A stretch of DNA of 51,166 nucleotides from Lachnospiraceae bacterium (GTDB taxonomy: Bacteria > Bacillota > Clostridia > Lachnospirales > Lachnospiraceae), in NCBI GenBank assembly GCA_017938285.1, contig JAGBBW010000128.1:1-51166 (forward strand). The letters run 5' to 3'. A program made the position numbers and the translations under genes. Positions 29,569 to 47,073 of this stretch are shown one piece after another; the first letter of the stretch is position 1, and each line of letters starts with the position of its first letter. Below the pieces are notes generated by a model that worked only from the letters and a program-made list of their open reading frames with translations, was not told the origin of the DNA and ran no database searches.

Positions 29569-31044
29569 ATGGATAAAAAAGCTTACTTAAAAACCATTGA
29601 TGACGTCATTGCAAAGGGACCTTACTCCGCAGACTGGAGTTCCCTCACCGATATGGAAATTCCGGGCTGGTTTTCCAAAGCCAAATTCGGTATTTTCATT
29701 CACTGGGGTTTGTTCAGTATTCCGGCCTTTGCCAATGAATGGTATTCCAGAAATATGTACATCCAGGGCACACGGGAATTTGAACACCACGTTGCCACTT
29801 ACGGTCCACACAAAGAATTTGGGTATAAGGACTTCATTCCAATGTTCACGGCAGATAACTTTGACCCGGCAGAATGGGCTGACCTGTTCCAGGAGGCCGG
29901 TGCCAGATATGTCGTTCCTGTCGCAGAACACCATGACGGGTTCCAGATGTATAACAGTGAACTTTCTGAGTTTAATGCAGTAAAAATGGGACCAAAACGG
30001 GATGTCCTCGGCGAATTAAAAACAGAATTTGAAAAAAGAAACATGACCTTTGCCACATCGACCCACCGTGCAGAACATTTATGGTTTATGGGCAACGGCA
30101 AAGATTTTGACAGTGATATCAAAGAACCACTGCAGTGCGGTGACTTTTACTGGCCATCCCTGCAGGAACAGCCGGACCAGTCCGATATCTTTGCCACTCC
30201 GTATCCGTTTGAGGAATTTCTGGAGGACTGGCTGCTGCGCACCTGTGAGCTGATTGACAACTACCGCCCGCGCATTCTTTACTTTGACTGGTGGATTCAG
30301 CATGAAGGTTACAAAGACACCTTAAAGAAAATTACCGCCTACTACTACAACCGCGGTGTGGAATGGGGCACTCCGGTTGCCATCTGCTACAAACACGATG
30401 CCATGCCGTTCGGCAGCGCCATTGTGGATGTAGAGCGTGGCAAATTTGCCGATACCAAGCCTTACCACTGGCAGACGGACACCGCCATTGCCCACAATTC
30501 CTGGTGCTACACAACGGAACTGGATTACAAAACCTCATACGAAATCGTCTGCTACCTCATTGATGTAGTCAGCAAAAACGGCAACCTGCTTTTAAATGTA
30601 GGTCCAAAGGGAGACGGTTCCATTCCGGAAGAAGATACGAAAATCTTAAAAGAAATCGGTGCCTGGTTAAAAATAAATGGAGAAGCCATTTACAACAGTA
30701 AGCCATGGCGTGCCTGTGCAGAAGGTCCGACCAAAGAAAACGAAGGCAAATTTTCCGATGAACATAACAAAAAATATACCAGCAGAGACTTCCGCTTCAC
30801 CGCAGGCCACGGTTCCATCTATGCTGCCTGCATGAATTATCCGGAAGATGGTGAACTTTGTATTACTTCCCTTGCTTCCGGCGGCCATGAAAATTCCACG
30901 GCCTTCCAGGGAATCATTGCAGATGTGGAAATTTTGGGATACCACGGCAAGGCTGCCTATGAACAGACCAGCGAAGGTCTCAAAGTACATGGGCCAAAGA
31001 AATTTACAGACTTCCCGGTAGTGGTAAAAGTGAAAACTAATTAA
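29569..31044 (+). CDS. Alpha-L-fucosidase, GH29, cytoplasmic
   Basis: 491 residues of the GH29 family, which release L-fucose by a retaining mechanism. Seen: FGIFIHWGLFSIPAFANEWYS (about residues 40-60), AEHHDGF (119-125), and LYFDWW with the likely nucleophile Asp240, followed by NGNLLLNVGPKGDGSI (about 340). There is no signal peptide, so it acts on imported fucosides. Monocistronic between its own AAGGAGG and a strong terminator. No fucose pathway genes are adjacent. Confidence 0.92.
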   Translation: MDKKAYLKTIDDVIAKGPYSADWSSLTDMEIPGWFSKAKFGIFIHWGLFSIPAFANEWYSRNMYIQGTREFEHHVATYGPHKEFGYKDFIPMFTADNFDPAEWADLFQEAGARYVVPVAEHHDGFQMYNSELSEFNAVKMGPKRDVLGELKTEFEKRNMTFATSTHRAEHLWFMGNGKDFDSDIKEPLQCGDFYWPSLQEQPDQSDIFATPYPFEEFLEDWLLRTCELIDNYRPRILYFDWWIQHEGYKDTLKKITAYYYNRGVEWGTPVAICYKHDAMPFGSAIVDVERGKFADTKPYHWQTDTAIAHNSWCYTTELDYKTSYEIVCYLIDVVSKNGNLLLNVGPKGDGSIPEEDTKILKEIGAWLKINGEAIYNSKPWRACAEGPTKENEGKFSDEHNKKYTSRDFRFTAGHGSIYAACMNYPEDGELCITSLASGGHENSTAFQGIIADVEILGYHGKAAYEQTSEGLKVHGPKKFTDFPVVVKVKTN

Positions 31045-31064
31045 CTCTCCTATAAAATCATACG

Positions 31065-31103
31065 AAAAGAGACTGCTGTACCTTCTTTGCAGCAGTCTCT
31101 TTT
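31065..31103. terminator. Bidirectional terminator, fucosidase/XrtG operon
   Basis: A 14-bp perfect stem AAAAGAGACTGCTG/CAGCAGTCTCTTTT with an 11-base loop and T-runs on both strands. It closes the exosortase operon from the right and the fucosidase gene from the left. Confidence 0.85.
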
Positions 31104-31121
31104 TCTTGTCCTGTTTTGTTC

Positions 31122-32012
31122 TTATTTCTTCTCAAACTTTATGGAATCAAACTGACGCAGCGTTTCAAAAAAGTCTTTTCGTGCTCCACTCCAGTGATGC
31201 CATTTTACCAGTTTTAAGAAAGAACCAATTCCTACAAGCACAACGAAGACAAACTTTACCTGTTTTACCAGTTCTTCTATTTTTCCAAAGGAAAAACGGA
31301 TTCTGCGTTCCTGTTTTTCTTCCGGTCCGTCCTCTTCTTCCTCTTCGTCTTCATATTCGTCTTCATATTCGTCATAGAAACCATACTTATCCCGGAGGCT
31401 GTATTCCTCATCCTCATTGTCTTCTATGTAGTTGTAGTCTTCTTCCTCATACTCCGGTTCTTCGTACGCAGCCTCTTCGTATTCCGGTTCGTCAAACTCC
31501 GGCTCGTCATATTCCGGCGTTTTCCCTGCTTCTTCAGCAGATTCCTCCTCCGGTTCTTCTTCCGTATCCTTATTTTTCTGGACAATCTGGTCGATAAAAT
31601 TTTCTTCATCATTTACATACTTGTTCATGTCCAGATATTTTCCTTCTACTTCGTCGTAGGAATTTACAATATACGACCTGGAAGGAGTCTCACTGATTTC
31701 AATGGACAACAGTACCATGCCATAATCACGGATTTCCTCTTCAATCATACGCTTAAAGTGGACCACCATGTTTTCCAGCGTTGGATTCACCTTGTTGAAT
31801 GGTTCCAGCGTATTGATGAACTGATCCTGGTATTTTTCAAAAATCTTGCTGATAACGGCCTCTACCCGGTCAAACTGTACGAAATTTTCTTTCGTGTTCA
31901 GCACCTCTATCATGATTTCCCAGGTGTGCGGGTGCATCTGGCCCAGCACGTTGTTAATAAAAATTGCATGGTTTGCATTTAAATAAAACTTATACTTGTA
32001 CTGGTTTACCAA
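31122..32012 (-). CDS. 6-pyruvoyl-tetrahydropterin synthase-related protein with acidic linker and membrane tail
   Basis: 296 residues. Residues 1-130 resemble the PTPS/QueD fold: three metal-binding His (NANHAIF and MHPHTW), then VQFDRVEAVISKIF and a Glu-rich helix. The catalytic Cys usual in PTPS/QueD is not seen. Residues about 150-235 are extremely acidic (runs of Glu/Asp with Tyr), and residues about 252-275 form one hydrophobic segment (VKFVFVVLVGIGSFLKLV). The start is TTG 32012, with GGAGGGAAGG before it, overlapping the glycosyltransferase end by 23 bp. Last gene of the XrtG operon; it belongs with the exosortase-G associated PTPS-related proteins. Substrate unknown. Confidence 0.8.
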   Translation of the reverse strand: MVNQYKYKFYLNANHAIFINNVLGQMHPHTWEIMIEVLNTKENFVQFDRVEAVISKIFEKYQDQFINTLEPFNKVNPTLENMVVHFKRMIEEEIRDYGMVLLSIEISETPSRSYIVNSYDEVEGKYLDMNKYVNDEENFIDQIVQKNKDTEEEPEEESAEEAGKTPEYDEPEFDEPEYEEAAYEEPEYEEEDYNYIEDNEDEEYSLRDKYGFYDEYEDEYEDEEEEEDGPEEKQERRIRFSFGKIEELVKQVKFVFVVLVGIGSFLKLVKWHHWSGARKDFFETLRQFDSIKFEKK

Positions 32013-34251
32013 ATTCCTTCCCTCCTATTCCTGTGATTTCCCGGACAATGTCCTCTTCCTGTTCCAGGTCCTTCACAATAATCATGTAATATTTTGCTTC
32101 ATCTCTGCCAAAATAGGCATTATAGCGTTCTGAAAGTTTTGCCAGTTCTTCCTCCTGCTCTGCGTCCAGCTGAAACGTTACCATCCGGTAGGTAATGCCA
32201 TTCTTCTCCAGACGTTCTTTCAGCTTCAAAACAAAGGAGAAGGGATAAATTCCTTCCACCCGCTTTCGTGTAATACGTTCCAGTTCTTCCCTTTCTGACT
32301 CTGCTGCCAGTTTGTTTTTGTATTCATCAAATTCACTTTCCAGCTGACGCAGCTCATCTCCATGTTTTTTATCCACATTGATGGCACGAAGGGAAATACA
32401 CACCACCACCAGATATAATACCGTAAATTCCATCAGAACAAACATATTGTACTGGGTTGTGTTTAAATCGTCATCAATATACGAAGTCAGCATCCCCATT
32501 GCTACAATATATTCCCTGCCATCCAGTTCCACTGCCCTGGAAGACATTACCCGTTTTCCATCCGGATCTCCGGTATAAATCTGTTCCTGGTCCAGCAGCA
32601 CCTGCGCCAGGGAAGCGTCTGCCACCTCCTCCTGTGTATCCTGGTATACTGTAAAAATTCCATTCGTTTTATCATACAGATAAAACGCCTGTCCGCCGGA
32701 AGTCTTTGCCAGACTGATGGCGTGTGCCATTGTGTTTACATCTTTATTCGTTGTATTCACAATGGAATTCAGAAGGTTCTCCTGCATCTTGGCATAATGG
32801 GAATAATTGTTTTCTGTATTCCGCTTCAGAAAATACAAGGCACAGGTTATGTTTACTATCAGAAATCCAAACAGAATCAGTAACCGTACCCACCGTCTGT
32901 TCATCTTCTCCCTCTCCTTTTTTTCTTTCTTCAGGGTAAAATCATCTTTAATTGCTTCTTTTATCAGCCGGAACTCTTCCTTGTACGTCAGGGTTTTCCA
33001 GCTGCTGCCCCTGGTAATGGAGTTTACAATTCCCGCCATACGGATAAAGAATGTTATCATGTTATAGCCGGGAAGGGCAAACAAATAAAAGAACTTCTTT
33101 ATGTAGTACTTCCGCAGGTCCTCATAGTCCCACAGAAAACAGATACAGGCAATCCAGTTGAGGAATGCCACCAGCACATACATCATGTAAATCCAGAACA
33201 TTGCCGTAGCAATCATTTTCATGCTGTACTTATAAAATCCCAGTGCCACCAGTGCAAAACACCAGATAAGTCTCGGGAATGCCACGGTATGGTCCACGCA
33301 CAGAAGCCGGATATTGGCGTCGGAAAAAAATCTCCGGTATTTCAGATTGTGCGTTCCGTGGAACATGTGGAATACTTCCAGTTCCCCAATCTGCCAGCGC
33401 TGCCGCTGGGTATACAGCTTTTCCATGCTTTCAATCGGGTCTACCATAAATATGGCAGATTCGCAGAGTGCCACTGCCTGATTCAGCAGTTTTTTTACCT
33501 GCATTGTCAGATGGGCATCTTCACAGATGGTATTGGTATTGTATAACTGCGTTTTCAGAATCGTGGATTTACGAAACGCAGAAAACGCTCCTGACAACGT
33601 AAAAATAGTGTTATATTCGGAATTATAATTACGTCCAACTAAAAACGCCTGTCCATATTCGAGAAATTCAATCCTCTGTAAAAAGCGCAGGGCTTTCTTT
33701 TTTGTCTGCTCGACTAACGGAGGCTCCGTCAGAATAATACCGGTCATACAGTGAATGTCCTTATTGTTTTCAAACTTCCGGACCATATTGTACAGAGCAT
33801 GCTCTTCCAGCTTGCCATCACTGTCAATATTTATAATATACTTGCCTTCGGAATTAAACAGGGCAAGATTTAACGCTTTTGACTTTCCCTGACCGGCATT
33901 CAGCCACTGCATTTTTAATGTCTTATACTTTTCCTGGCATTTTACATAAATTTCAAAACTGTTATCCGGACTTTTATTATTGACCAGAATAACATCAATC
34001 AGTTCATTCGGGTAGGTGCTTTTATCGATGGAATCGATACAGCCTTCCAGCGTTCCTGCCGAATTATATACCGGTATCAGCAGGGAAATCTGGGGAAGAA
34101 AATCCAGCTCTCTCTCCGGATATATCCTGCATCGGATGGTCTTTTTTATGAGGATAATAAAATTGCCTATCGCCGGAATGATTTCCACAATAAACGGAAT
34201 AATCAGCCAGCTCATCCAGGCATACAGTTCATCTGCCAGCCAACTAAACAT
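31990..34251 (-). CDS. Exosortase G-associated processive glycosyltransferase fused to a membrane sensor-like module
   Basis: About 753 residues. The N-terminal half is a membrane GT2 of the cellulose/chitin-synthase type: LLIPVYNSAGTL, DSD (near 143-145), CEDAHL (base, near 245) and QRQRW (near 283-286), with membrane segments near 12-35 and 310-400. This matches the exosortase G-associated glycosyltransferase. Then, from about residue 450 (ATG 32904), a second module begins: a membrane segment, an external domain of about 115 residues (TSGGQAFYLYDKTNGIFTVYQDT), a membrane segment, a coiled coil and a C-terminal cytoplasmic domain loosely like a degenerate GGDEF. Start ATG 34251 overlaps xrtG by 8 bp. 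Product sugar unknown. Confidence 0.85.
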   Translation of the reverse strand: MFSWLADELYAWMSWLIIPFIVEIIPAIGNFIILIKKTIRCRIYPERELDFLPQISLLIPVYNSAGTLEGCIDSIDKSTYPNELIDVILVNNKSPDNSFEIYVKCQEKYKTLKMQWLNAGQGKSKALNLALFNSEGKYIINIDSDGKLEEHALYNMVRKFENNKDIHCMTGIILTEPPLVEQTKKKALRFLQRIEFLEYGQAFLVGRNYNSEYNTIFTLSGAFSAFRKSTILKTQLYNTNTICEDAHLTMQVKKLLNQAVALCESAIFMVDPIESMEKLYTQRQRWQIGELEVFHMFHGTHNLKYRRFFSDANIRLLCVDHTVAFPRLIWCFALVALGFYKYSMKMIATAMFWIYMMYVLVAFLNWIACICFLWDYEDLRKYYIKKFFYLFALPGYNMITFFIRMAGIVNSITRGSSWKTLTYKEEFRLIKEAIKDDFTLKKEKKEREKMNRRWVRLLILFGFLIVNITCALYFLKRNTENNYSHYAKMQENLLNSIVNTTNKDVNTMAHAISLAKTSGGQAFYLYDKTNGIFTVYQDTQEEVADASLAQVLLDQEQIYTGDPDGKRVMSSRAVELDGREYIVAMGMLTSYIDDDLNTTQYNMFVLMEFTVLYLVVVCISLRAINVDKKHGDELRQLESEFDEYKNKLAAESEREELERITRKRVEGIYPFSFVLKLKERLEKNGITYRMVTFQLDAEQEEELAKLSERYNAYFGRDEAKYYMIIVKDLEQEEDIVREITGIGGKEFGKPVQV

Positions 34252-34831
34252 AATCAAACTTACCCACTTTTTGTTTTAAAATCTGTGTTCTCGTAAACGT
34301 GTAAAAATACAGTGCCATAATCAGCACAAGAAACAGAAGTCTTGCAATAATGGCATGGGTCAGGTAATAATACTCCATCCCCGTGTAATACGTCACAATA
34401 CCGATAAATGACAGTCTCAGCACATTGGCTCCCAAAATGTACAGAGTTCCCAGAACCTGGTGGATAATCTTCTCATACAACTGGTACGCCGGAAAAAACA
34501 TAATCATGCTGATATATGTAATAATCTCCAGAATGCCGGAGCACTCAAAATCAATATAAACATTTACAATATCTTTGCCCTGAATTGCCAGAATTCCATA
34601 ACTGGAATATACATCAAAGCATCCGGTCAGTCTGCCAATAAAACCGGATATACTGGTCACCAGATAGGAAAACGGCACCAGCAGCGTATTAAACGCATAA
34701 AACAGCAGAAAAAAGAACATCCCGGCTGCTCCCACCAGAAAGCGGAAAAAATCCAGCTTTGTCTTTTTCAGTACATGCAGCGCATACAGCCAGAGAATCA
34801 GCAAAATTACACCTATGATATATTTTACCAT
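34244..34831 (-). CDS. xrtG: Exosortase family protein XrtG
   Basis: A membrane cysteine transpeptidase-like enzyme of the exosortase/archaeosortase superfamily, Gram-positive type G. About 195 residues with six or so membrane segments. In numbering from the ATG at 34843 the triad is Cys101 (DFECSG), Arg143 (NVLRLS) and His163 (LTHAII). I use ATG 34831, just after GGGGAG; the ATG at 34843 is the alternative. It is expected to cleave the C-terminal tail of the protein at 35339-36127 and attach it to a membrane or glycan carrier; the acceptor is unknown. It overlaps the glycosyltransferase start, so the two are coupled. Confidence 0.9.
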   Translation of the reverse strand: MVKYIIGVILLILWLYALHVLKKTKLDFFRFLVGAAGMFFFLLFYAFNTLLVPFSYLVTSISGFIGRLTGCFDVYSSYGILAIQGKDIVNVYIDFECSGILEIITYISMIMFFPAYQLYEKIIHQVLGTLYILGANVLRLSFIGIVTYYTGMEYYYLTHAIIARLLFLVLIMALYFYTFTRTQILKQKVGKFDYV

Positions 34832-34858
34832 ACTACTCCCCATTCCGAGAACGTCACA

Positions 34859-35260
34859 CTATCTTCTCTTATCCAGCTTCACAATGTTTCCACAGTTACC
34901 AACTACCACATCCGAACATACTACAAATTTTTTCAGAATATTATCGCTGATTTCCAGTTTTACCAGCTCATATTCCTTAGAGCTGATAATTTCAGAAAGT
35001 CGTTCAAAAAAGACCATTCCCATGTTTTCTATGACCGGATTCTTCGCATGAAATTCCTCATGGTCATTAATCAGGGTATTTGTAAACGTTTCCAGATACT
35101 CCTGTATTTTATTTTCTATCACGGCATATTCCACAAATACATCCTGTTTTTTAGAGTGAATAAACAATACAATAAAAAAGGTATGGGCATGTGGCTTTCC
35201 ACCGGCTGTATCATGCATGGCATTCATCTTGAATGTATACTTGTAATATCTCCGTTCCAC
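34859..35260 (-). CDS. Small 6-pyruvoyl-tetrahydropterin synthase-related protein
   Basis: 133 residues, a stand-alone version of the PTPS-like domain in 31122-32012: metal-ligand His in MNAMHDTAGGKPHAHTF, then VFVEYAVIENKIQEYLETF and a conserved Glu-rich helix. Again I see no catalytic Cys at the PTPS position, so a pterin-making role is doubtful. The start is GTG 35260 with GGGAGGAAGG before it. It lies 28 bp upstream of xrtG and probably acts with it. What it binds or makes is unknown. Confidence 0.8.
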   Translation of the reverse strand: MERRYYKYTFKMNAMHDTAGGKPHAHTFFIVLFIHSKKQDVFVEYAVIENKIQEYLETFTNTLINDHEEFHAKNPVIENMGMVFFERLSEIISSKEYELVKLEISDNILKKFVVCSDVVVGNCGNIVKLDKRR

Positions 35261-35288
35261 GACCTTCCTCCCTTTTTATATGACGAAA

Positions 35289-35321
35289 AGGCTGTTGCAA
35301 AACATACGCTGACAACAGCCT
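35289..35321 (-). terminator. Weak terminator/attenuator after the exosortase substrate gene
   Basis: AGGCTGTTG pairs with CAACAGCCT around a 15-base loop, followed on the minus strand by TTTT. It could let the substrate gene be expressed more than the enzyme genes downstream. Confidence 0.55.
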
Positions 35322-35338
35322 GATATACCGACTCTCTG

Positions 35339-36127
35339 CTACTTATTCTTTTTTCGTTTTCCCAGCTTTCCGGTCTTTGATGCAAAATACATACCGACCA
35401 TTCCCAGACCTGCTGCTGCGGAAATTACCGCTCCGGTAGGTGCACCTTCCGCATTAATGCGGCGGTACATCAGATTCGGTGTAAAAAAAGTAACTCTGGA
35501 TGCATTTTCCGCCTCTGCCCTTGGATTCTGCATATTGAAGGACTCGTATGGAATGAACAGTTCCAGTTCCCGGTTTACACGGTCCTCCGGCACATACAAC
35601 GCCGCCTCACCGGCAACAACATTATTAAAACTATGCTGGGAATCCCCATGTTTTACAATGGCAGAATAGTGCCCCGGTGCGTATCTGTGAATAATTTCAT
35701 CCAGCTGTCTTCCGCTTTCATCCGCAATCTGGAACTTTGTTGTCGCACGGTCAAACGTAAACTGGTAATCATACCCATTAAAACCATTCCAGTAATCCCT
35801 GGAAAATACAATATGTAAATAAACTCCGGCTTCATCGCGGTATAACTGGATATAATGGCGTACATCCGTGCTGTATTCACCTACCGGTGTTTTATAACAC
35901 TGACCGTTTACCCAGACACCCCAGTACCAGCAGTTGGCAGAATTGTCCCAGTTATATTCATAAGAACCCGGCAGTCCGTCCCAGTCATCCATATAACCGT
36001 CAATTGATATGCTTTTTCCTGCGGCACGTGCTTCCACCGGTGCAGTCCCCCCAAGTACAAGCAGCACTGCCAGAAAAGAAATCACTGCCTTTTTCCAAAC
36101 GGACCCTGTTCTATGTTTCAATTCCAT
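35339..36127 (-). CDS. Secreted protein with C-terminal exosortase (Firmicu-CTERM-type) sorting signal
   Basis: About 262 residues. N-terminal signal peptide (VWKKAVISFLAVLLVLGG...VEARAAG), a beta-rich exported domain with an IDGYMDDWDGLP start seen in extracellular sugar-binding-like domains, and a C-terminal tail of GAPTG, a short hydrophobic segment (AVISAAAGLGMVGMYFA) and a basic cluster (KLGKRKKNK). This is the tripartite signal expected for XrtG. ATG 36127 follows AAAGGGGAAG; an upstream in-frame extension lacks a site. It is the only candidate substrate in the locus, encoded upstream of two PTPS-like genes, xrtG and the glycosyltransferase. Confidence 0.85.
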   Translation of the reverse strand: MELKHRTGSVWKKAVISFLAVLLVLGGTAPVEARAAGKSISIDGYMDDWDGLPGSYEYNWDNSANCWYWGVWVNGQCYKTPVGEYSTDVRHYIQLYRDEAGVYLHIVFSRDYWNGFNGYDYQFTFDRATTKFQIADESGRQLDEIIHRYAPGHYSAIVKHGDSQHSFNNVVAGEAALYVPEDRVNRELELFIPYESFNMQNPRAEAENASRVTFFTPNLMYRRINAEGAPTGAVISAAAGLGMVGMYFASKTGKLGKRKKNK

Positions 36128-36227: not shown

Positions 36228-37793
36228 TTATTCTTCCTGTAAATCCATCTTTTTCCGGTATTCTGCCGGACTCTCTCCCACATATTTCTTGAATTTTTTA
36301 TGGAAGTAGTCCACATTCTTATAGCCTACCAGTTCCGCAATTTCATACACCTTATGCTTATTTTCCACCAGAAGCTCAATGGCATGCTTAATACGTACCT
36401 GGTCCACATAGGAATTGAAGCTTTCTCCTACCGTCTTGTTGAAAATTTTTCCAAGATAAGAGCTGTTGTAGCCAAACAGTGCCGCAATACCTTCCAGCTT
36501 GATGTTGGTATGGTAATTATGCTCAATATAATACAGAATGTCATCCAGAACACTGTCCCTGGAAGAATTTCCGATGGAATTCATAACCTCCTCGAACTGT
36601 TCTGCAAAATAGTCCGTGATTTCATATAAGTAATGCTGTTCATTGATAAAAGCAATACAGTCCTGGTTGGAATCAAACGGAAGCGTCACTGCATTATAGC
36701 GGTGGTTCATCATTTCCTTCACCTGCAGATATAAATCAGTTACAAATAAACGCACGGAAGAAATATCGGTATCTACATGATACAGATAGTTTTCCAGTTC
36801 CTGTAACGTTTCATTTACTTTGCGGCGGTTAAAGGTCTGCAGAAAATCCGTCAGTTTTGTGCAGTATCCTTCCACCTGGGAAATATCCAGGACACCCAGT
36901 TCCTGTTCCAGGGACGGAAGTTCTGCATATCCAAGAACATGCTGGCCTTTTTCACAGAAGAAACGCCGTCCCAGCAGAAGCACTGCCTGTTCATAGGAAG
37001 TTTTCAGCTCCCGGATATCCGCCACTGCCTTTCCATAGGCAAGAAACAGGGTATCTAACGGACTGCCCTTCTGCGGCGCAGACTCATAATGTTTTAAAAA
37101 GCGCTGGAACTTTTCAATCGCAAAATTTCCTTTTAACAGCAGAACATTTTTTCCTTTCACCACAAAATGTTCAAAAGAATTGGTTCCGCTGTCCGCCACC
37201 ATAAACATATCCGCAAACTGGTACGGCAGCTCCAGCTCCCCAATCTGGAAGTTCTCATATAATACCACCTGGTAAACCTCTGCATCCAGCTTTAATTCCT
37301 TTAAATTCAGAAGTCCGTAATCCACTTCATCCTTCAGAATATCCTGAAAAATTTCTTTTTTGGATTTGCGGCGGAAAAACTCATTGTCCGATTTTTTCTG
37401 CCGCTCTGCCTGAATGGTATCATATACTTCCATTACCACTTTTTCCAGTTCTTCTTCATCCATCGGTTTCGTCAGATAATACTGCACACCAAATTTCATG
37501 GCTGCCTGGGCATATTTAAAATCCGAATAACCGCTTAAAATCACAAAGGTTCCGGTAAATCCCTGCGCCTTGGCCTGTTCGATTACTTCCAGACCATACA
37601 GTTTCGGCATACGCATATCAATCAGCACCAGGGACGGTTTCAGTTCCAGAATGTCCCGCAGGGCATCTTCACCATTCCCGGCCTCGCCGCATATAGTAAA
37701 ACCCATTTCTTTCCAGTCAACAATATATTTCAAACCTTCCCTGATGTTTGCTTCATCGTCTGCAATATAGACGGTCTCCATGATTTCTTTCAT
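36228..37793 (-). CDS. YesN-type response regulator (REC plus AraC HTH)
   Basis: 521 residues: receiver domain 1-125 with DDE acidic pocket, phospho-acceptor Asp in VLIDMRMP and Lys in YYLTKPMDEEEL; a long middle region (about 140-400); and an AraC-type double HTH at the end (IKLEGIAALFGYNSSYLGKIF and KVYEIAELVGYKNVDYFHKKF). Such regulators pair with YesM-type sensor kinases and switch on LplABC-type sugar uptake genes. No kinase gene is in the window. AGAGGAG precedes ATG 37793. It lies downstream of a solute-binding lipoprotein and 101 bp before the exosortase locus, which it could also affect. Confidence 0.92.
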   Translation of the reverse strand: MKEIMETVYIADDEANIREGLKYIVDWKEMGFTICGEAGNGEDALRDILELKPSLVLIDMRMPKLYGLEVIEQAKAQGFTGTFVILSGYSDFKYAQAAMKFGVQYYLTKPMDEEELEKVVMEVYDTIQAERQKKSDNEFFRRKSKKEIFQDILKDEVDYGLLNLKELKLDAEVYQVVLYENFQIGELELPYQFADMFMVADSGTNSFEHFVVKGKNVLLLKGNFAIEKFQRFLKHYESAPQKGSPLDTLFLAYGKAVADIRELKTSYEQAVLLLGRRFFCEKGQHVLGYAELPSLEQELGVLDISQVEGYCTKLTDFLQTFNRRKVNETLQELENYLYHVDTDISSVRLFVTDLYLQVKEMMNHRYNAVTLPFDSNQDCIAFINEQHYLYEITDYFAEQFEEVMNSIGNSSRDSVLDDILYYIEHNYHTNIKLEGIAALFGYNSSYLGKIFNKTVGESFNSYVDQVRIKHAIELLVENKHKVYEIAELVGYKNVDYFHKKFKKYVGESPAEYRKKMDLQEE

Positions 37794-37942
37794 AACATTC
37801 TCCTCTTCCTACCCTGCCCTGCAGAGAGGCTTTTTCCATCGGCCGCTTTGTTTCTTCTTTTATGCTTTAAGCTAATCCGCAGTTATTTTGATTGCCATAA
37901 ATTATACAGAAAAAACGAAGAAATTGCAAGGAATTTTGCGTT

Positions 37943-39673
37943 TCATTTCCGCACTTTTTCCTCCAGCTCCCAGCGTTTTTCTGCTTCCTTTTCACACCAT
38001 GCCACACAGTCTGCATAACCGCAGGCGTCTGCTTCTGCCTGCATCTCGGAAACGATTTTTTCAAACGCTTCCTCTGACTCTGCATAAATGGCATCCCAGG
38101 ACCCTTCCACGATACGGGCAGCCACCGTTTCCCATGCCTGCTTAAGTTGTCCCTCTGGGGTTGCTTCTTCATACGGTACTGCCGGAATTACGGTATGGTT
38201 TCTGCCATTTACATACTCCTGCGCTGTCTGTGCCCCGGTATACTCCCTCCAGTCCTGCTCCATCGCGCAGGAAGCCGCAGGAATATTACTTTTCCAGCGT
38301 TCCTGGTTATAGGTTTCCCCATTGGAATCCGGATTTTCCGCATTGATGTTCCAGGTCACGTTATTTATCTGTGGAAAACCATCGCCGTAACAAAATCCTT
38401 CGTACTCTCCTGTCAGTAACGTCTCCCTGTTCCAGTAACAGGTCTTTCCAAACTCCGTAAAATAGGTGTTTCCTTCTGCATCATAGTCCCAGATCAGTCC
38501 CTGCGGACCATATTCGCACACCATTCTGCCCTCCGGTGTACAGAACCAGTTCAAAAGTTCCATGCAGAGTTCCGGATACGGTGTATCTGCACTGATTGCC
38601 CAGATTCTTCTGCCTCCGTATACACTCATGCCATCAGCCGCCGGGGAAGCTTCCTCCGGAATCAGACTGGCCATATACATGTTGCCCTCCAAATGCGGGT
38701 TGGTATTATATGCCATGCTTCCGGCATACCCAAACAGGGAAAACAGTACTTCCCCATTCTCTAATTTCTTTAACGCTTCTTCATAGGTCTGGGTTTTGGA
38801 ATCCGGGTCTAACAGTCCTTTCCGGTATAATGTGTTGAAAAAGCGAAGCAGTTCCAGATACGGTCCGTCTGTTTCCAGTGCCCCATGGAACCCACCGGTT
38901 TCCGTATCGTAAAACCCAAAAGGAAACTCATCATAGCCATAATACGCTGACACCATGGAACGCACATAAAATACCATGGTGTCATCCCACTCCCGCCAGA
39001 AAGAAAGGGCATATACTTCTTTTCCTACCGTTTCCGCCCGGGCAAGCAGCTGCATTTTCTCTAAAACCGCAGCGAACTCCTCCAGATTTTTCACCTCCGG
39101 ATATCCCAGTTTTTTATACCAGTCCCAACGGATATCCCAATAATAAAGAATCGTTTCTATTTCCTCCCAGTCATCCGCCGCACCATGCCCGAACCCATAC
39201 ACGCCACCCGCTTCCGGCGTCAGACTCCGGTTATACTCCAGTGCTTTATGCAAATGCTCTGCCAGATATGCTCCGTGTTTTTTCATCAGATCATTTTCTT
39301 CCCAGTCCAGCAGCCAGCCCTGTGCCACTGCATTCCGGTAAACCTCTCCATCGCTGCCAAATACCAGAATGTCACCCTTTGTTCCCTTTTCCTTCCATTC
39401 ATCCTCCGGCAGGTCAGGAACAATATGCAGTACCACATTAAATTTGTCCAGCAGCACTTTGGCAAACCACCCCTGCTGTTCCCCCTGAAAACCGGACACC
39501 TGGCTGTAAACGGTAAGTTCCACCGGTTCCTCTTTCGTAACCGTTTCCACTGACTGCTCTATGGATGTGGGTGTTACCGTTACTGTGGGAACTTCCGGTG
39601 CAGGTTCCGGCTGACGGCAGGCACCTACGGTCAGACATAACAATAAAAACATCAGGAACATTATTTTTTTCAT
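37943..39673 (-). CDS. Sugar ABC transporter solute-binding lipoprotein (LplA-like), copy 2
   Basis: 576 residues. Lipoprotein signal ending in LTVGAC (Cys19), then an extracellular solute-binding protein of family 1. It is paralogous along its whole length to 44185-45987 (shared ELTVYSQ, GWFAKVLLDKFNV, PQGLIWDYDAEGNTYFTEFGK and a common C-terminal end). The start ATG 39673 follows GGGAGGAG; 11 more in-frame codons upstream have no site. A strong terminator separates it from the GH5 gene, and the regulator gene follows about 150 bp downstream, so it may form a separate unit with it. A second binding protein may widen the sugar range. Confidence 0.9.
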   Translation of the reverse strand: MKKIMFLMFLLLCLTVGACRQPEPAPEVPTVTVTPTSIEQSVETVTKEEPVELTVYSQVSGFQGEQQGWFAKVLLDKFNVVLHIVPDLPEDEWKEKGTKGDILVFGSDGEVYRNAVAQGWLLDWEENDLMKKHGAYLAEHLHKALEYNRSLTPEAGGVYGFGHGAADDWEEIETILYYWDIRWDWYKKLGYPEVKNLEEFAAVLEKMQLLARAETVGKEVYALSFWREWDDTMVFYVRSMVSAYYGYDEFPFGFYDTETGGFHGALETDGPYLELLRFFNTLYRKGLLDPDSKTQTYEEALKKLENGEVLFSLFGYAGSMAYNTNPHLEGNMYMASLIPEEASPAADGMSVYGGRRIWAISADTPYPELCMELLNWFCTPEGRMVCEYGPQGLIWDYDAEGNTYFTEFGKTCYWNRETLLTGEYEGFCYGDGFPQINNVTWNINAENPDSNGETYNQERWKSNIPAASCAMEQDWREYTGAQTAQEYVNGRNHTVIPAVPYEEATPEGQLKQAWETVAARIVEGSWDAIYAESEEAFEKIVSEMQAEADACGYADCVAWCEKEAEKRWELEEKVRK

Positions 39674-39705
39674 GAAACAGCTCCTCCCTGGATACCACCA
39701 TGTCA

Positions 39706-39755
39706 AAACTCCTGTATCCGGACATCATTACCCCACCGTCCGGATACAGGAGTTT
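39706..39755 (-). terminator. Terminator after the GH5 gene
   Basis: An 18-bp perfect stem (AAACTCCTGTATCCGGAC and its complement) with a 14-base loop, between GH5 and the second binding protein. Confidence 0.8.
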
Positions 39756-39797
39756 CCATTCGTTCAGATTCTGTTTCTTTGGGAAACAGTCTGCATA

Positions 39798-42503
39798 TTA
39801 CTGTGCACCTATCTGCTCCGGATAAACCGAGGTAATCTTAATCTTTGCCTTACCTTTCTGCTCACCCATGGCAGTAATGGTTGCTTTACCTTCCTTAATG
39901 CAGGTTACCTTCACCTTCACAGCGCCCTCTTCCGGCAGTACACCGGTACAGTCTACGACTGCCACGGAAGTATCATCCGACATAAACGCAATCTTCTCTG
40001 TCGTATCTCCCGGCTCTACGGTAATGGTAAATTCTCTTGTTTCACCCACTTCCATAACCGCCTCGGTTTCCGTTGCTTTGATGGAAGTAATTTCTACCGT
40101 TTCACCAGCTTCGGTGGATTCGAATACGAGATTCGAAATCGTAAAGGTTACTTCAATTCTCTTTGGTTCTGCAATTCCTGCGATATTCAGCGTAAAGTCA
40201 CTGTTTGCACTTACTTCTGCCACAGCGGAACCATCCCAGGCATTCATTGGGTCACCGGTATCCAGTACGCCCGCCTTTAAGGCTGTCTTTGGCGCAGTCT
40301 GGGTTACCGTCAGCTCGGTGCCGTCTACCACAACCTTGTCATACATAATGTCACAGGTTGCCACTTCTGTCCTGGTCTTTACTGCAGTTGTTACGAGATA
40401 GTCCTTGATGTACAGGGAACCAATACCTGCCAGACTGGTTACTCCTGCTGCCTTTGCGGCATCAGACAGGTCAGTTTCTGCATCAATCACAACGGTATAC
40501 TGGCCGTCACCGGTAATGGTTACCGTCTGGCCAACATCATTACCAAAATAATTATGAACACTGTCGGAAAAATATGCATTCAGTGCCACCTGGATTTCAC
40601 CCGTGGAAGCCACCGCAGAAACCTTAATCTTCACACTGCGGTTCACGCCGGTGGAGGACTGGATAATTACATACGCAATACCTGCGGAATGGGCTGTTAC
40701 TTCACCAAACTCATTTACGGTGCAGATATCCTCATTCGTTGATGTATAGGTCAGGAAAGCATCTGCATTTTCCGGTTCCATCGCTGCCTGCAGATTTGCG
40801 TGGGAACCGTTTGGAATGGTTACGGTTGTCTGAGGAACCACGATTTTGGTACATGGATTTTCTGAATGCTGCGCATTTACAAATACCTGGACCTCTGCCT
40901 TTGCATCGCTCTTTAAGGAATATGCCGTAATCGTGGCAACACCCATACCCTTGCCGTGAACCATACCGTTATACACAGTTGCCACGGATGGGTCGGAAGT
41001 TTTCCACACAATTACATCATGGCAGTCTGCCGGACTTTTGGAAGCCTCCAGGGATGTGTATTCACCAATGCACATATGTACCGCATCCACTCCAACGGTA
41101 ATTTCCGCTGCGGAATCCTGCACCGGATTCTTTACAATGTCTGCGAGGTTCTTATAATCCAGGAAATATCCACGCATAATACCGTAGGTCAGTTCCGGAT
41201 ACATTAAATCATATGTTTCACGGTTAATAATCGTAAAACAGAAATCCATATTTCCTTCGGCATGGTCAAACGCTCCTGCATCCCAGAGCACCGGCACAAT
41301 GCCAATCTTCTTACACATATAGTTCATGGTTTCCAGATAATACGCACGTTCTGTCGTATTATTTTTATCAATGGCACCATACTCACCTAAAATTACCGGA
41401 TAACCTGCTTCCACAAATCTGGACAGTTTATCAAAATTCTTTTCCAGTGCTTCTGCCTCATCCAGACTCCATATGGTATTTGTCTTATTTTCCGCCAGAC
41501 CAAACAGCCATGGATAGTCATGTACCGCAAGGAACAGATGACCTGCCGCATCCTCCGGCATTTCAAATCCATACGCTTCATTCGTTGTATTTACCACATT
41601 GGTATATCTGCCCGGTACGGATAACCAGCGGCTGGCATTGTTGCCGCCTGTCGCACGTACGGTATCGACAAAAATCTGGTTCAGTTCCATGATTACCTGC
41701 ATATCCTTTTTAATGCCGGCATCGGAATTGTCCGGACCAACCACTTCATTCATGGACTCAAAAATCAGATGCTCATCATAATCCTGAAAACGCTCTGCGA
41801 TATGCTTCCAGACAGCAGCAAACTTCTCCTTCACCGGAGTTAAGTCTTCCGCACCGACACGAAGCCAGCCTGTCTGTTCTGCACCATCGTGGTGGACGTT
41901 AATAATACAGTACATATCCTGGGAAACGCAGTAATCCACAATTTCCTGCACACGGGACATCCACTGTTCATTGATGGCATAGCCATTGGCATCGTCAATC
42001 ATATTTCCCCAGGTAACCGGAACACGGACGGTATTAAAACCGGCATCATGCACTGCGGTCATTAACCCTTCCGTTGTTACATACGGCTGCCATAAGGTTT
42101 CCAGCGGTGTAAATCCGGTGTGACCATCCATCGTATTGCCCAGATTCCAGCCGGTACCCATTTCCGCTACCATTTCTTCTGCGGTTAAGTTACGGAATGG
42201 TTCCATTCCCACGGCTGCCGGTGCCTCAGTCGGAACCGGAGTCGCGGTTGGCTCGGGCGTTGGTGCCTCGGTTGGTTCCGGGGTTGCCGTTGGTGCTGTT
42301 GTTGCGATCGGTTCCGGGGTTGCCGTCGGCGCTGTCGTTGCGGTCGGCTCCGGTGTCTGTGTCGGCACAAACGTCACCTTGGCTGTTCCTCCAGCCGGTG
42401 TGACTTCCGGGTCTGTTGTCGTATTCGAACCGCAGCCAGCCGCCGAAAGCAGCATTGCAGCACTGAGCAGTACTGCCAGGCCTTTCTTTTTCCAAAGTCT
42501 CAT
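39798..42503 (-). CDS. Surface GH5 glycosidase lipoprotein with Ig-like and CBM-like modules
   Basis: About 901 residues, start ATG 42503 (AGAGG upstream). Lipobox LSAAGC (Cys24), Thr/Pro linker (45-98), GH5 TIM-barrel at about 105-445 with MGTGWNLGNTMD, NTVRVPVTW, HHDG, acid/base Glu253 in SMNEV and nucleophile Glu374 in LGEYG. Then Ig-like Big_2 modules (about 465-545 and 550-630), a CBM-like module (about 635-800) similar to part of the repeat protein at 48931-50955, and a last Big_2-like module. It acts on a beta-glucan or beta-mannan type chain at the surface; which one is not readable. In line with the esterase and transporter genes. Confidence 0.9.
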   Translation of the reverse strand: MRLWKKKGLAVLLSAAMLLSAAGCGSNTTTDPEVTPAGGTAKVTFVPTQTPEPTATTAPTATPEPIATTAPTATPEPTEAPTPEPTATPVPTEAPAAVGMEPFRNLTAEEMVAEMGTGWNLGNTMDGHTGFTPLETLWQPYVTTEGLMTAVHDAGFNTVRVPVTWGNMIDDANGYAINEQWMSRVQEIVDYCVSQDMYCIINVHHDGAEQTGWLRVGAEDLTPVKEKFAAVWKHIAERFQDYDEHLIFESMNEVVGPDNSDAGIKKDMQVIMELNQIFVDTVRATGGNNASRWLSVPGRYTNVVNTTNEAYGFEMPEDAAGHLFLAVHDYPWLFGLAENKTNTIWSLDEAEALEKNFDKLSRFVEAGYPVILGEYGAIDKNNTTERAYYLETMNYMCKKIGIVPVLWDAGAFDHAEGNMDFCFTIINRETYDLMYPELTYGIMRGYFLDYKNLADIVKNPVQDSAAEITVGVDAVHMCIGEYTSLEASKSPADCHDVIVWKTSDPSVATVYNGMVHGKGMGVATITAYSLKSDAKAEVQVFVNAQHSENPCTKIVVPQTTVTIPNGSHANLQAAMEPENADAFLTYTSTNEDICTVNEFGEVTAHSAGIAYVIIQSSTGVNRSVKIKVSAVASTGEIQVALNAYFSDSVHNYFGNDVGQTVTITGDGQYTVVIDAETDLSDAAKAAGVTSLAGIGSLYIKDYLVTTAVKTRTEVATCDIMYDKVVVDGTELTVTQTAPKTALKAGVLDTGDPMNAWDGSAVAEVSANSDFTLNIAGIAEPKRIEVTFTISNLVFESTEAGETVEITSIKATETEAVMEVGETREFTITVEPGDTTEKIAFMSDDTSVAVVDCTGVLPEEGAVKVKVTCIKEGKATITAMGEQKGKAKIKITSVYPEQIGAQ

Positions 42504-42541
42504 TCTGATATCCTCTTTTCCTTTCATGTTAATATGTTTTT

Positions 42542-43396
42542 TTACTGGAAGAACTTCTGCTCCACTCCGAGCTGCAAATGCCCAAAGGTTTCCAGAATCC
42601 AGGTATGTACCAGTTCCACCCAGCTCTGGCAGATTGGCACGATTTCACACCAGTATTCCGTACCGGATACTTCCGTTGCCACACCAATACCATGACCACC
42701 CTGGGAATACAGATGAAGCTCCGCAGAAATCCCTTTGTCTTTCAGCGCTTTCGCAAACAGCATGGAATTTTCCACCGGAACCAGTCCGTCCGTCATGGTA
42801 TGCCACAGAAAAGTCGGCGGATTGTCCTCTGTCACCTGCTTTTCCAGTGACATTTCCTCCACCAGCTCGTCATAGCGGTCTGCCAGAAGATTTTTAAAAG
42901 AATCCCGGTGGGCATATTCCCCGGACGTAATCACCGGATAATTTAACATCAGACCATTCGGACGAAGTACTTCCTTTTCACAGCCAAGCGCTTTCCTCAG
43001 CCAGTCCTTTGTCCAGAAACAACTGTAAGACGCCACCAGATGCCCTCCTGCCGAGGAACCCATCAGAAAAATCCGCTCTGTATCAATGTGCCACTCTTCT
43101 GCCCGTTCCCGGAGCATCTGCACCGTACGGCCCAGTTCCAGAAGTGCTGTCGGAAAATGTGCTTCCGGTGCCACGGAATAGCGGAGCACCACCGCATGGT
43201 ATCCTTTGGCAGTAAACTGTAGTGCCAGCGGTTCCCCCTCCCGGTCAGAGTTATACACATATGCTCCACCCGGACATACAATCACGACCGGACGCTTTTT
43301 CACACCAAATTCCGGTGTATCTTCCAGAAGATAGGTAGTCAGTACGGCATCTTTTGTGGATCCCTCTTCCTTCATTTGAAATTTTTCATATATCAT
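42542..43396 (-). CDS. Alpha/beta-hydrolase, carbohydrate esterase-like
   Basis: 284 residues, alpha/beta-hydrolase fold: oxyanion block VIVCPGGAY, nucleophile elbow MGSSAGGH with the catalytic Ser, Asp in WHTMTDGLVPVEN and His in QGGHGIG. The layout matches bacterial acetyl-xylan/feruloyl esterase-like enzymes in polysaccharide loci. No signal peptide, so it would act on imported oligosaccharides. It lies between yesL-like and GH5 genes with gaps of 17 and 38 bp, so cotranscribed. True substrate not known. Confidence 0.85.
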   Translation of the reverse strand: MIYEKFQMKEEGSTKDAVLTTYLLEDTPEFGVKKRPVVIVCPGGAYVYNSDREGEPLALQFTAKGYHAVVLRYSVAPEAHFPTALLELGRTVQMLRERAEEWHIDTERIFLMGSSAGGHLVASYSCFWTKDWLRKALGCEKEVLRPNGLMLNYPVITSGEYAHRDSFKNLLADRYDELVEEMSLEKQVTEDNPPTFLWHTMTDGLVPVENSMLFAKALKDKGISAELHLYSQGGHGIGVATEVSGTEYWCEIVPICQSWVELVHTWILETFGHLQLGVEQKFFQ

Positions 43397-43413
43397 GGTT
43401 TCAGCCTTTCTTT

Positions 43414-44028
43414 TTACTCATTGTTTTTTTCAATATCCCGGAATACATACATGGCAGGTCCGCTGATGGTTAAAAACATCACTGCCGGACCAACCAGAAG
43501 TCCAAGGAAAATGGTTGTGGTATTAAACAGAAATAATACCAGTTCCACCGCAAGGACAACTGCTATCAGAATCGTCTTTCCGAAATATTTCACACAGATT
43601 TCCATGGAATTTTTCAGTGTCTGTAAAAACGTATTTTCGTACCGTGCCATCAGGGCATAGGCATAAATAAAATACCCAAAACACATCACACTGCCCACAA
43701 TTCCAAGAATCAGAAAGTAAATCGGATTACCCTCCACTGCATGAAACAACTGAAAGTCCAGATACAGGGCATATACAAAAAACAAATTGAGTAATCCGGT
43801 CGGAATACCCTGCTTTAAATTTGCCTTAAAGGCCGTCCAGAACTGCTTTGCAATGTACCCTTCCCGTTCATCCACCATTTTAAGTGTGATGCTGAAAGCT
43901 GCTGCCGTGGAAGCTCCAATCGTCACAATGGGGAGCGAGAACAAAAGCCATAAAAAATTTAATTTTAACATGTCCAGCAGCCGGCTGAAAAACTGATATA
44001 ACGGTCCTTCGATACTAAAAAATTTCAT
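43414..44028 (-). CDS. YesL/DUF624 membrane protein
   Basis: 204 residues with about five membrane segments and the YesL/DUF624 start (GPLYQFFSRLLDMLKLNFLWLLFSLPIVTIGASTAA). Such proteins are found with YesMN/LplABC-type loci and may help transporter or sensor function; their role is not known. GGAGAACG precedes ATG 44028. Same strand as, and between, the binding-protein and esterase genes. Confidence 0.85.
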   Translation of the reverse strand: MKFFSIEGPLYQFFSRLLDMLKLNFLWLLFSLPIVTIGASTAAAFSITLKMVDEREGYIAKQFWTAFKANLKQGIPTGLLNLFFVYALYLDFQLFHAVEGNPIYFLILGIVGSVMCFGYFIYAYALMARYENTFLQTLKNSMEICVKYFGKTILIAVVLAVELVLFLFNTTTIFLGLLVGPAVMFLTISGPAMYVFRDIEKNNE

Positions 44029-44066
44029 ACTCTGTCGTTCTCCATTCTTTTTATTTCCCCATACCC

Positions 44067-44132
44067 GGAAAGGAGCTGTTGCAGAATATCCGCTTTTCTG
44101 CTACAAAAAGCCTTCTTCAACAGCCCCTTTCC
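44067..44132 (-). promoter_or_regulatory. Intercistronic hairpin after binding protein 1
   Basis: GGAAAGGAGCTGTTG pairs with CAACAGCCCCTTTCC (one mismatch), loop about 36 bases containing an inner GCAGAA/TTCTGC. No T-run follows on the minus strand, so mRNA processing or stability is more likely than full termination. Confidence 0.5.
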
Positions 44133-44184
44133 CTTATTGCTTATGATAACTGCTTTTACCCTGCGCAGTTATGTTCTTACTTTT

Positions 44185-45987
44185 TTACTTTCTTACTTCC
44201 TCTTCTAACTCATGACGTCTTGCTGCTTCAGACAGACACCATTCGATACAATCTTCATAACCGTATGCCTTGGCATCGTTAAGCATCTTGTTCAGGTGCA
44301 TGTTGTACTCACCGTCAGACTTAGCATAAATACAGTTCCAGGAACCATTTACGATACAGGCGGTAACCTGATTCCATACTACTTCCAGTTCATCACTTCT
44401 TACGGAATCACTGTAAGTTGTTGCCGGAGCAACCTTAAAGTTCTTTGTCTTTAAATATTCCATTGGAGTAACCGCACCGGTAAAATCTCTCCAGTCCTGT
44501 TCCATGTCACAGGAAGCCTGGGACACATTGCTCTTCCATGTCTGCTGGTTGTAAGTTTCACCATTGGAATCCGGATTTTCTGCATTCTGGGACCAGGTAA
44601 TGTTGTTAATCTGCTGACGTCCATCACCATAGTTGAAGCCTGCGTATTCCCCTTCCATCATGGTTTCGGAATCAGTAACACACTTCTTACCAAACTCGGT
44701 GAAATAAGTATAGCCTTCTGCGTCATAATCCCAGATTAAGCCCTGTGGACCATACTCAGATACCATCTTTCCTTCCGGAGTACACATCCAGTTGATAATC
44801 TCCATACAAAGTTCCGGATACTGGCTGTTTGCACCAATTGCCCATACTCTGTTGCCACCGAATACGCTCATACCATAAGTAATTGGAGACGCTTCTTCCG
44901 GAAGCAGGGTTGTCATATACTTGTTTTCTGCCAAATGTGCTTCTGTATTGTAGGCAAGATTACCAGCGTAGTTAAAGATAGAGAAGAACACTCCGCCGCT
45001 CTGTACCTTGGAAATCATTTCATCGTAGGTCTGTGTCATGGAGTTTGGATCCAGTAAATCTTCACGGTATAATGTATTGAAGAACTTTAACATTTCCAGG
45101 TATGGTCCGTTTTCATCCAGTGCACCATAGAATGTACCTGTATCAGAATCGTACAGACCCAGATGTAATTCATCATAACCGTAATAAGCAGTTGCCATGG
45201 ACTTTACATACATTACCATGTTGCCATCCCAGTCAGGCCAGATAGACACCGGATAAGTTTCCTTCCCATTGTCATCGGTTGGACAGAGTTCCTTCATATC
45301 CTTCAGTAAGGTAACTAAATCGTCCAGATTTTTTACTACCGGATAACCTAACTGCTTATATAAATCCCAGCGGATATCCCAGGTATAAAAGAATTCTTCA
45401 AAGCTATCACTGCTTGGAGCAACACCATGACCAAAACCGTAAATCTTGTTCTTTTCCGGTGTTAAGCCTCTGTTCGCTTCCAGAGCCTGTGCCATATTTT
45501 CCTTGATGTATGGACCATACTCATCCAGAAGACCGTCTTCTTCCCAGTCAAACAGCATATCTGCTTCTACTGCTCTCTTGTAATCAGAACCGGTGCTGCC
45601 GAATACAACGATATCACCCAGGTTACCGGACTCCATACGGGTATCAAATACACCATCCGTATCCGGAATAATCATTAACTTAACATTGAACTTATCTAAC
45701 AGAACTTTTGCAAACCAGCCCACCTGTTCACCGGAGAAGTTTGCCAGCTGGCTGTATACCGTCAGCTCAATCGGTTCTTCACCCTTCTTGTTTGTACTGG
45801 TGCTGCCGGAACCACTGCTGTTGCTGCTTCCAGTATCTGTGGAAGCTGTACTATTCGTACCTGTACTGGTACTGGTACTGGTATTGCTGTCTGTTCCCTT
45901 GTCTTCCTTGCCGCCGCAGGCTGCCATGGAAAATACCATGCTTCCTGCGAGAACGAAAGAAAGAGCTTTTTTCCAAAATTTTCTCAT
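44185..45987 (-). CDS. Sugar ABC transporter solute-binding lipoprotein (LplA-like), copy 1
   Basis: 600 residues. Lipobox MAACG (Cys24), Ser/Thr-rich linker (about 30-70), then a family 1 solute-binding domain. It lies next to lplC and lplB-like permease genes, so it is the main binding protein of this importer. AGGAGG precedes ATG 45987. Hairpins flank it on both sides, typical of operons where the binding protein is made in excess. The sugar is not known; linkage to GH5 and an esterase suggests an oligosaccharide from a decorated beta-glycan. Confidence 0.93.
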   Translation of the reverse strand: MRKFWKKALSFVLAGSMVFSMAACGGKEDKGTDSNTSTSTSTGTNSTASTDTGSSNSSGSGSTSTNKKGEEPIELTVYSQLANFSGEQVGWFAKVLLDKFNVKLMIIPDTDGVFDTRMESGNLGDIVVFGSTGSDYKRAVEADMLFDWEEDGLLDEYGPYIKENMAQALEANRGLTPEKNKIYGFGHGVAPSSDSFEEFFYTWDIRWDLYKQLGYPVVKNLDDLVTLLKDMKELCPTDDNGKETYPVSIWPDWDGNMVMYVKSMATAYYGYDELHLGLYDSDTGTFYGALDENGPYLEMLKFFNTLYREDLLDPNSMTQTYDEMISKVQSGGVFFSIFNYAGNLAYNTEAHLAENKYMTTLLPEEASPITYGMSVFGGNRVWAIGANSQYPELCMEIINWMCTPEGKMVSEYGPQGLIWDYDAEGYTYFTEFGKKCVTDSETMMEGEYAGFNYGDGRQQINNITWSQNAENPDSNGETYNQQTWKSNVSQASCDMEQDWRDFTGAVTPMEYLKTKNFKVAPATTYSDSVRSDELEVVWNQVTACIVNGSWNCIYAKSDGEYNMHLNKMLNDAKAYGYEDCIEWCLSEAARRHELEEEVRK

Positions 45988-47058: not shown

Positions 47059-47073
47059 AGCTTCTCACCCCCA

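Follow-up and report, generated by a model that had tools for sequence, protein, structure and literature searches.

A stretch of 51,166 nucleotides (nt) from a Lachnospiraceae bacterium (contig JAGBBW010000128.1; the whole stretch is called the window here) carries five genes which, by their profile matches, are a real member of the known type G exosortase (XrtG) system and not a chance grouping. The assignment is made because four NCBIfam models were exceeded in one operon: TIGR04145 (Firmicu_CTERM) by the substrate P0001 (61.4 bits, cut-off 50), TIGR03110 by the XrtG exosortase P0003 (175.7 bits, cut-off 102.75), TIGR03111 by the glycosyltransferase frame P0004 (590.6 bits, cut-off 363.95) and TIGR03112 (cut-off 69.35) by both PTPS-like proteins, PTPS-A (P0002, 86.8 bits) and PTPS-B (P0005, 139.9 bits). 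The XrtG set probably cuts a single exported protein and attaches it to the cell surface next to sugar-polymer enzymes. The system is known, and the window is an unusual member of it: judged from the loci compared below, it holds a divergent copy of the cassette without the GT-C-type membrane protein that otherwise accompanies XrtG.

All five open reading frames (ORFs) that an earlier note on this DNA had proposed were found on the minus strand, in the order substrate, PTPS-A, XrtG, glycosyltransferase frame, PTPS-B, with gaps of 78 nt (substrate/PTPS-A) and 27 nt (PTPS-A/XrtG) and overlaps of the XrtG/glycosyltransferase and glycosyltransferase/PTPS-B frames. The XrtG identity given there stood in the profile searches, with the exosortase match lying at 34244-34831, and the Cys, Arg and His of the enzyme were located where expected (C97, R139 and H159, each conserved without exception in the 84 XrtG aligned from the loci that were kept). 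The locus had also been called complete, which did not hold, PF10131 being missing though it was matched in 49 of the 50 well-covered XrtG loci.

XrtG is sparse in the group, being detected in 6 of 145 relatives and in 13 of 398 sampled phylum genomes, 9 of these over the cut-off. A contig scan confirmed 269 relatives, and the best 80 of the 269 loci were kept; with five relatives' loci and the window, minus two duplicates removed from the counts (L042, a copy of L010, and L101, a copy of L008), 84 loci were annotated. The component hidden Markov models (HMMs) were trained iteratively on the very loci being counted, so that counts within the set lean towards detection. Fifty loci were full, XrtG being flanked by 8 kb or more on either side, and partners were counted in these within 8 kb on the strand of XrtG: a family 2 glycosyltransferase (GT2), a PTPS-like protein and a substrate were each present in 50, the GT-C protein in 49, a membrane sensor in 42 and a YfhO-type protein in 2. 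One of the 50, L098, has its GT2, PTPS and GT-C matches in a single 177-amino-acid (aa) frame; it was kept, the joined frame being taken for a deletion or an assembly fault. The gene order of the window, substrate-PTPS-XrtG-GT2-PTPS, recurs in L039, L043, L060, L084, L088, L091 and L095.

The usual GT-C partner is the large membrane protein of the Pfam family PTPS_related, PF10131 (705.6 bits in L007), a member of the GT-C clan according to PMC7801869, and the window is the sole full locus lacking it. Among the 14 genomes with XrtG over the cut-off, 13 carry PF10131 over its own cut-off, the exception being the assembly of the window (G000); four phylum genomes with a sub-cut-off XrtG are divided, PF10131 being present in G241 and G354 and absent from G155 and G252, the last with an XrtG match of just 23.6 bits. 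Of the 145 relatives, 5 have a PF10131 match above 200 bits, and each of these also has XrtG (Fisher p 1.2e-8); 9 are over the curated cut-off, 4 of them without XrtG (p 1.5e-6), and 11 match at E up to 0.001. The near-universality of PF10131 is a result of the present survey and lies outside the curated definition of the XrtG cassette.

No PF10131 was detected on the 51-kb contig or elsewhere in the assembly, which is 86.7% complete, so that the unsequenced remainder may contain the gene. A GT-C profile search of the same genome for a distant homologue matched nothing but the two PTPS domains, and no YfhO-type replacement was found there. TIGR03766, which we take to be associated with XrtG, was considered as the missing partner; it was matched in 0 of 6 and 0 of 12 XrtG genomes and hence is not typical of the group either.

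Table 1. Features of the XrtG locus in the window and of related fused frames (coordinates are those of the window unless a locus is named).
Feature	Position	Strand	Remarks
Substrate P0001, 262 aa	35339..36127	-	signal peptide, one IDG..DW domain, C-terminal sorting tail; TIGR04145
C-terminal tail of P0001, aa 228-262	35342..35446	-	GAPTG, hydrophobic stretch, basic end; from alignment of tails
Hairpin followed by UUUU between substrate and PTPS-A genes	35289..35321	-	possible attenuator; ten outer pairs
PTPS-A P0002, 133 aa	34859..35260	-	stand-alone PTPS-like domain; TIGR03112
XrtG exosortase P0003, 195 aa	34244..34831	-	TIGR03110; C97/R139/H159
P0004, glycosyltransferase plus extension, 755-aa frame	31990..34251	-	TIGR03111
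Glycosyltransferase module of P0004, aa 1-440	32932..34251	-	processive-type GT2; TIGR03111
Run of seven A	32918..32924	-	precedes a purine-rich stretch and an internal ATG; could explain why the two modules share a frame
Sensor module of P0004, aa 450-753	31993..32904	-	two membrane helices, domain between them, decayed cytoplasmic domain, probably GGDEF-derived
PTPS-B P0005, 296 aa	31122..32012	-	PTPS-like domain, acidic linker, C-terminal membrane helix; TIGR03112
Terminator-like hairpin closing the operon	31065..31103	-	14 pairs; common to the converging fucosidase gene
Substrate-XrtG fusion stretches	L128, L129, L131, L132; longer L144, L148		genomes G221, G159, G357, G278
PTPS + GT-C + substrate domain with sorting-type tail, ~1300-aa frame	L143:9786-13676, L146:2013-5915	-	

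In the GT2, D96, D143, D145, D245 and QRQRW (282-286) are invariant in 80 of 80 loci. D, DxD, D and Q..RW form the signature of processive GT2 synthases. The second-best NCBIfam match of P0004 was PgaC/IcaA (122.7 bits, far under the equivalog cut-off of 422.3). Fusion of the GT2 to a further domain was detected in 7 of 80 loci, with PF00884 in all four that were scanned; in L028 the fused domain matched best phosphoglycerol transferase I (169.8 bits) and a membrane-oligosaccharide glycerophosphotransferase (149 bits), both far below their cut-offs. Pfam scans of single proteins gave YfhO in L009 and a GtrA-type protein and a second GT2 in L007. Taken as a whole, these results point to a glycan that would be completed outside the membrane, and the proposal of the earlier note that the GT2 makes a glycan gains support from the invariant motifs and from the phosphoglycerol-transferase-like fusions.

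That note had read the whole P0004 frame as a GT2. The glycosyltransferase was right, and a second module was missed: residues 451-744 match a membrane sensor family (E 6.5e-42, own HMM), which in relatives is a separate gene. Clear GGDEF domains were detected in L050, L055 and L094, the first two with HD domains as well, and 8 of 58 sensor members, the window not among them, gave a PF00990 match with E no higher than 0.1. In its C-terminal part the window-type group (48 members) aligned by hhalign to seven hand-picked GGDEF-like sequences with probability 96.9 and E 1.3e-10, partly over a coiled stretch. PDB matches of the sensor were weak, with designed proteins first (E 0.016) and GGDEF proteins at E 0.034-1.7. 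The domain appears GGDEF-derived, but GG[DE]EF was kept in 0 of 66 sensors, and control by cyclic di-GMP is not claimed.

At the joint of the two modules the neighbouring frame ends at a stop overlapping the internal ATG; of the 62 GT2/sensor pairs in relatives that are spaced -150 to 400 nt apart, five share a 4-base overlap. The joined frame was found in the window alone among the 84 loci, and in the 28 other matching genomes of 397 family genomes sampled no match extends past query residue 468; in G630 a frame of 819 aa is obtained by reading through one TAG. The joined frame may be a real fusion or a one-base sequence or assembly slip, and with its restriction to the window, the seven-A run and the internal start it is not put forward as a novelty.

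The PTPS-like proteins were compared with solved PTPS 2oba, whose alignment defined the catalytic places. Across 131 PTPS-like domains the three metal-ligand His are kept in 128, 128 and 127, and both window copies have all of them; the pterin-site Glu is present in 118 and replaced by Asp in 11, the window having Glu in PTPS-B and Asp in PTPS-A. The catalytic Cys was found, at its place or within three columns, in 0 of 131, and the places of the Asp-His pair hold Asp in 2 and His in 4. With the Cys absent and other residues in place of the Asp-His pair in nearly all domains, PTPS chemistry is unlikely, and a binding or scaffold role is more likely. The QueD model gave 25.6 and 29.6 bits for the window proteins, below its cut-off of 89.25. 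The earlier suggestion that these proteins modify or sense the acceptor is weakened accordingly in its chemical part.

As to architecture, the same note had recognized both proteins as PTPS-related, and had overlooked the acidic linker of PTPS-B (52 D/E of 110 residues) and its membrane helix (aa 248-266, about 31215-31271). By hydropathy, PTPS-B is the only one of 108 stand-alone PTPS proteins with a helix after the domain. Among the 84 loci, 15 have a PTPS domain in one protein with GT-C and 8 have one fused to the sensor. Membrane ties are thus common for this domain, and in the window, which has no GT-C protein, PTPS-B carries a tie of its own; the two features may be connected.

The substrate bears a C-terminal sorting tail. 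T231 is invariant in the 33 aligned tails (alignment A3: the window and those 32 substrates of the loci in which the model match was long), and G228 is kept in at least 90% of them; several other substrates have S or A in place of the T of G..T. The full tail architecture was found in 60 of 83 substrates and, among the 562 remaining proteins encoded at the loci, in 4, while a bare G..T in the last 55 residues was found in 67 of 83 and 122 of 562, respectively. One to three IDG..DW repeats, by a loose pattern, occur in 77 of 83 substrates; the nearest relative of the window substrate in A3 is that of L039 (45%). P0001 had no Pfam match, the LPXTG anchor model included, and weak Gram_pos_anchor matches were seen in 8 of 33 substrates (best E 0.0094). 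A CBM9-like carbohydrate-binding fold, suggested by the IDG..DW pattern, lacked Pfam or PDB support and is not claimed.

P0001 is the sole place in the assembly above the TIGR04145 cut-off, and the system therefore looks dedicated to one substrate. Elsewhere in the window, a 674-aa protein (48931-50955, minus strand) has a PT-rich stretch and ends in a hydrophobic segment followed by KKKK; it matched neither Pfam nor TIGR04145.

Natural fusions of the substrate domain were detected in distant genomes. In G221, G159, G357 and G278, which represent two or more genera (G159 and G278 are close kin), the IDG..DW domain is followed by XrtG in a single frame of ~400 aa, in which the catalytic Cys is Asn and the Arg and His are kept. 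In G452 the substrate domain is separate and has a tail, and XrtG keeps its Cys. In G260 and G275 the domain, with helix and basic tail, forms the C-terminal end of a PTPS-GT-C protein encoded directly upstream of a Cys-bearing XrtG. Blastp relates the domains of all three forms, joined to XrtG, joined to the GT-C protein or separate, at E 1e-22 to 1e-46, and they are homologous. Their likeness to the window substrate is limited in blastp to 15-22 residues at E 0.02-0.7, and TIGR04145 (cut-off 50) gave 15.9 bits for L143 and L144 and 19.4 for L145, with L146 and L148 unmatched. The Cys is probably required for cutting of the substrate and would be lost once substrate and XrtG are one protein, and a permanent membrane tether may replace processing in the Cys-less fusions.

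Our best reading of the whole, which we hold tentatively and with somewhat less than even confidence, is a sorting system for one substrate, which would be brought next to a glycan-making machine in the membrane; the acceptor would be the glycan or the lipid that carries it. The substrate would be exported and held by its C-terminal helix; XrtG would cut near the G-x-x-T/S-G motif through C97 and pass the new C-terminus to the acceptor, which would be the membrane-bound glycan that the neighbouring glycosyltransferase makes, or the lipid end of that glycan. The substrate domain would thereby come to lie beside the glycan machine. In most of the examined relatives the glycan would be further worked on outside the membrane by the GT-C enzyme, and in some it would probably also be handled by a phosphoglycerol transferase. 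The membrane sensor with its decayed, probably GGDEF-derived domain would gate the synthase, and the PTPS-like domains would serve as membrane-tethered binding modules on the cytoplasmic side, making no pterin. The joining of the cleaved substrate to the glycan by XrtG had already been proposed in the earlier note and is likewise held here as a tentative step.

Several observations weigh against this reading. The literature found reports no XrtG acceptor, cleavage or glycan; the diguanylate cyclase motif is intact in none of the sensors; Pfam and PDB searches returned no carbohydrate-binding fold for the substrate; and the window copy is without the GT-C partner. In L103 (9287-10576) a 429-aa substrate-XrtG frame, with both NCBIfam models over cut-off, keeps the Cys and a GTPTG motif, a counter-example to the loss of Cys on fusion. 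Tethering seems enough in the Cys-less fusions, which speaks rather against a distant glycan acceptor, and glycan transfer may not be the point. In archaeosortase A, the best-studied relative found, maturation and covalent attachment to lipid depend on PssA and probably PssD, according to PMC7157517.

The last of these points leads to the main rival, which we consider possible and, taken by itself, rather unlikely: XrtG would anchor the substrate on a lipid of the membrane, in the manner of archaeosortase A, and the product of the glycosyltransferases would be an independent polysaccharide, held by the anchored protein. The window XrtG belongs to the same superfamily (TIGR04178, 52.8 bits, cut-off 23), the four Cys-less fusions fit a pure membrane-tether role, and the IDG..DW repeats of most substrates are consistent with a protein that holds a polysaccharide. 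Against it, the constant neighbour is the GT2, in every full locus, and not a lipid gene; a CDP-alcohol phosphotransferase motif was found in no ORF of the 84 loci, by a regular expression only, on flanks that are often short, and a lipid gene may lie elsewhere. The fusions make transfer to a glycan acceptor and mere trimming less likely, and make lipid anchoring and the direct ligation described next more likely.

A bolder proposal, which we put forward as speculative and unlikely, is that XrtG ties one carrier domain to its own glycan machine and that fusion has replaced this tie at least twice, once to XrtG with Cys changed to Asn and once to the GT-C protein. The window machine would then be a stripped one, in which the GT-C step is gone, the PTPS-like module is self-anchored, and XrtG would join the carrier directly to the product of the synthase, acting as a protein-to-glycan ligase.

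The divergence of the window copy raises the question of whether it is a remnant or a non-working system after loss of the GT-C step, which we regard as quite improbable. The GT-C protein is missing here only (1 of 50), the joined GT2-sensor frame is unique among the 84 loci, and the branch of the window XrtG measures 1.32 against a median of 0.097; its place in the tree (built without L102 and L103) is unsure, the long branch lying outside every starred group. At nearly invariant sites, with L098 and L103 left out, the window XrtG is the most deviant of 82 (2 of 27 sites) and its GT2 the second-most deviant of 79 (4 of 104). Yet every frame is open, the catalytic residues are kept and the deviations are few, PTPS-A departing at 1 of 3 sites, as do three others, and PTPS-B lying outside the eight top deviators listed; decay of the locus was not adopted. 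In the same tree, the XrtG of L036, from a contig named Coriobacteriaceae (Actinomycetota), groups among those of Lachnospiraceae, by transfer or a binning error. That XrtG would only trim and release the substrate, with no acceptor, is very unlikely: it is the simplest use of a Cys-Arg-His set, and proteolysis by exosortase was proposed by analogy to sortase (PMC1569441), but it leaves unexplained both the constant linkage to the glycosyltransferase (50 of 50 loci) and the permanent fusions to membrane proteins.

The window matches all four models of the NCBIfam XrtG cassette and differs from it by the absent PF10131, the helix of PTPS-B, the GT2 running into a sensor and the long XrtG branch. 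With the XrtG system of Lactiplantibacillus plantarum (CTERM, Xrt, GTF1, GTF2) it has the substrate, XrtG and a glycosyltransferase in common; that system, whose transcripts were raised, has two glycosyltransferases and, unlike the window, no PTPS-like gene named in the accessible part of PMC12854382. Archaeosortase A and PGF-CTERM proteins share the superfamily and the tripartite C-terminal tail, whereas the partners there are the lipid genes PssA/PssD and here glycosyltransferases (PMC7157517). The tail layout is also like that of sortase substrates, and G-x-x-T-G resembles LPXTG, but sortase is a different enzyme family and the window substrate has no Pfam match. PelD-type regulators of exopolysaccharide synthases are membrane-associated degenerate GGDEF proteins in a polysaccharide operon, which the window sensor may resemble, and a degenerate GGDEF receptor controls a Gram-positive polysaccharide (both from PMC7112168); the window sensor, by comparison, lacks GG[DE]EF and a shown site for cyclic di-GMP, its likeness being to the GGDEF domain only.

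Two RNA hairpins frame the enzyme genes. The region 35275-35338, between the substrate and PTPS-A genes, folds with -16.5 kcal/mol (z -2.51); its hairpin was absent from the output of the consensus scan, in which the loop limit was 8. The region 31055-31121, at the end of the operon, folds with -20.4 kcal/mol (z -4.26). The two hairpins would favour more substrate than enzyme. A GH29 alpha-L-fucosidase gene (29569-31044, plus strand) converges on the XrtG operon, and directly upstream, on the strand of the operon, lies a cluster of plant-sugar type (36228-48549) with an AraC-type response regulator, a solute-binding protein and a GH5 cellulase with Big_2 domains; by eye only, two permeases and another binding protein were recognized there.

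The literature searched showed nothing on XrtG function or on a link of XrtG with PF10131, a GGDEF-derived sensor or Cys-less fusions, and earlier archaeosortase and exosortase work may already describe some members of the cassette. Five things seem to be new: a GT-C partner that is almost always present, fusions of phosphoglycerol type, the sensor, substrate-XrtG fusions without the Cys, and the ways in which the window copy departs from its relatives. Taken together, the steady partners and the natural fusions make the question of the exosortase acceptor directly testable and raise the further question of what the Cys step adds beyond a permanent membrane tether, for which the window copy, without the GT-C step, provides a further natural comparison.

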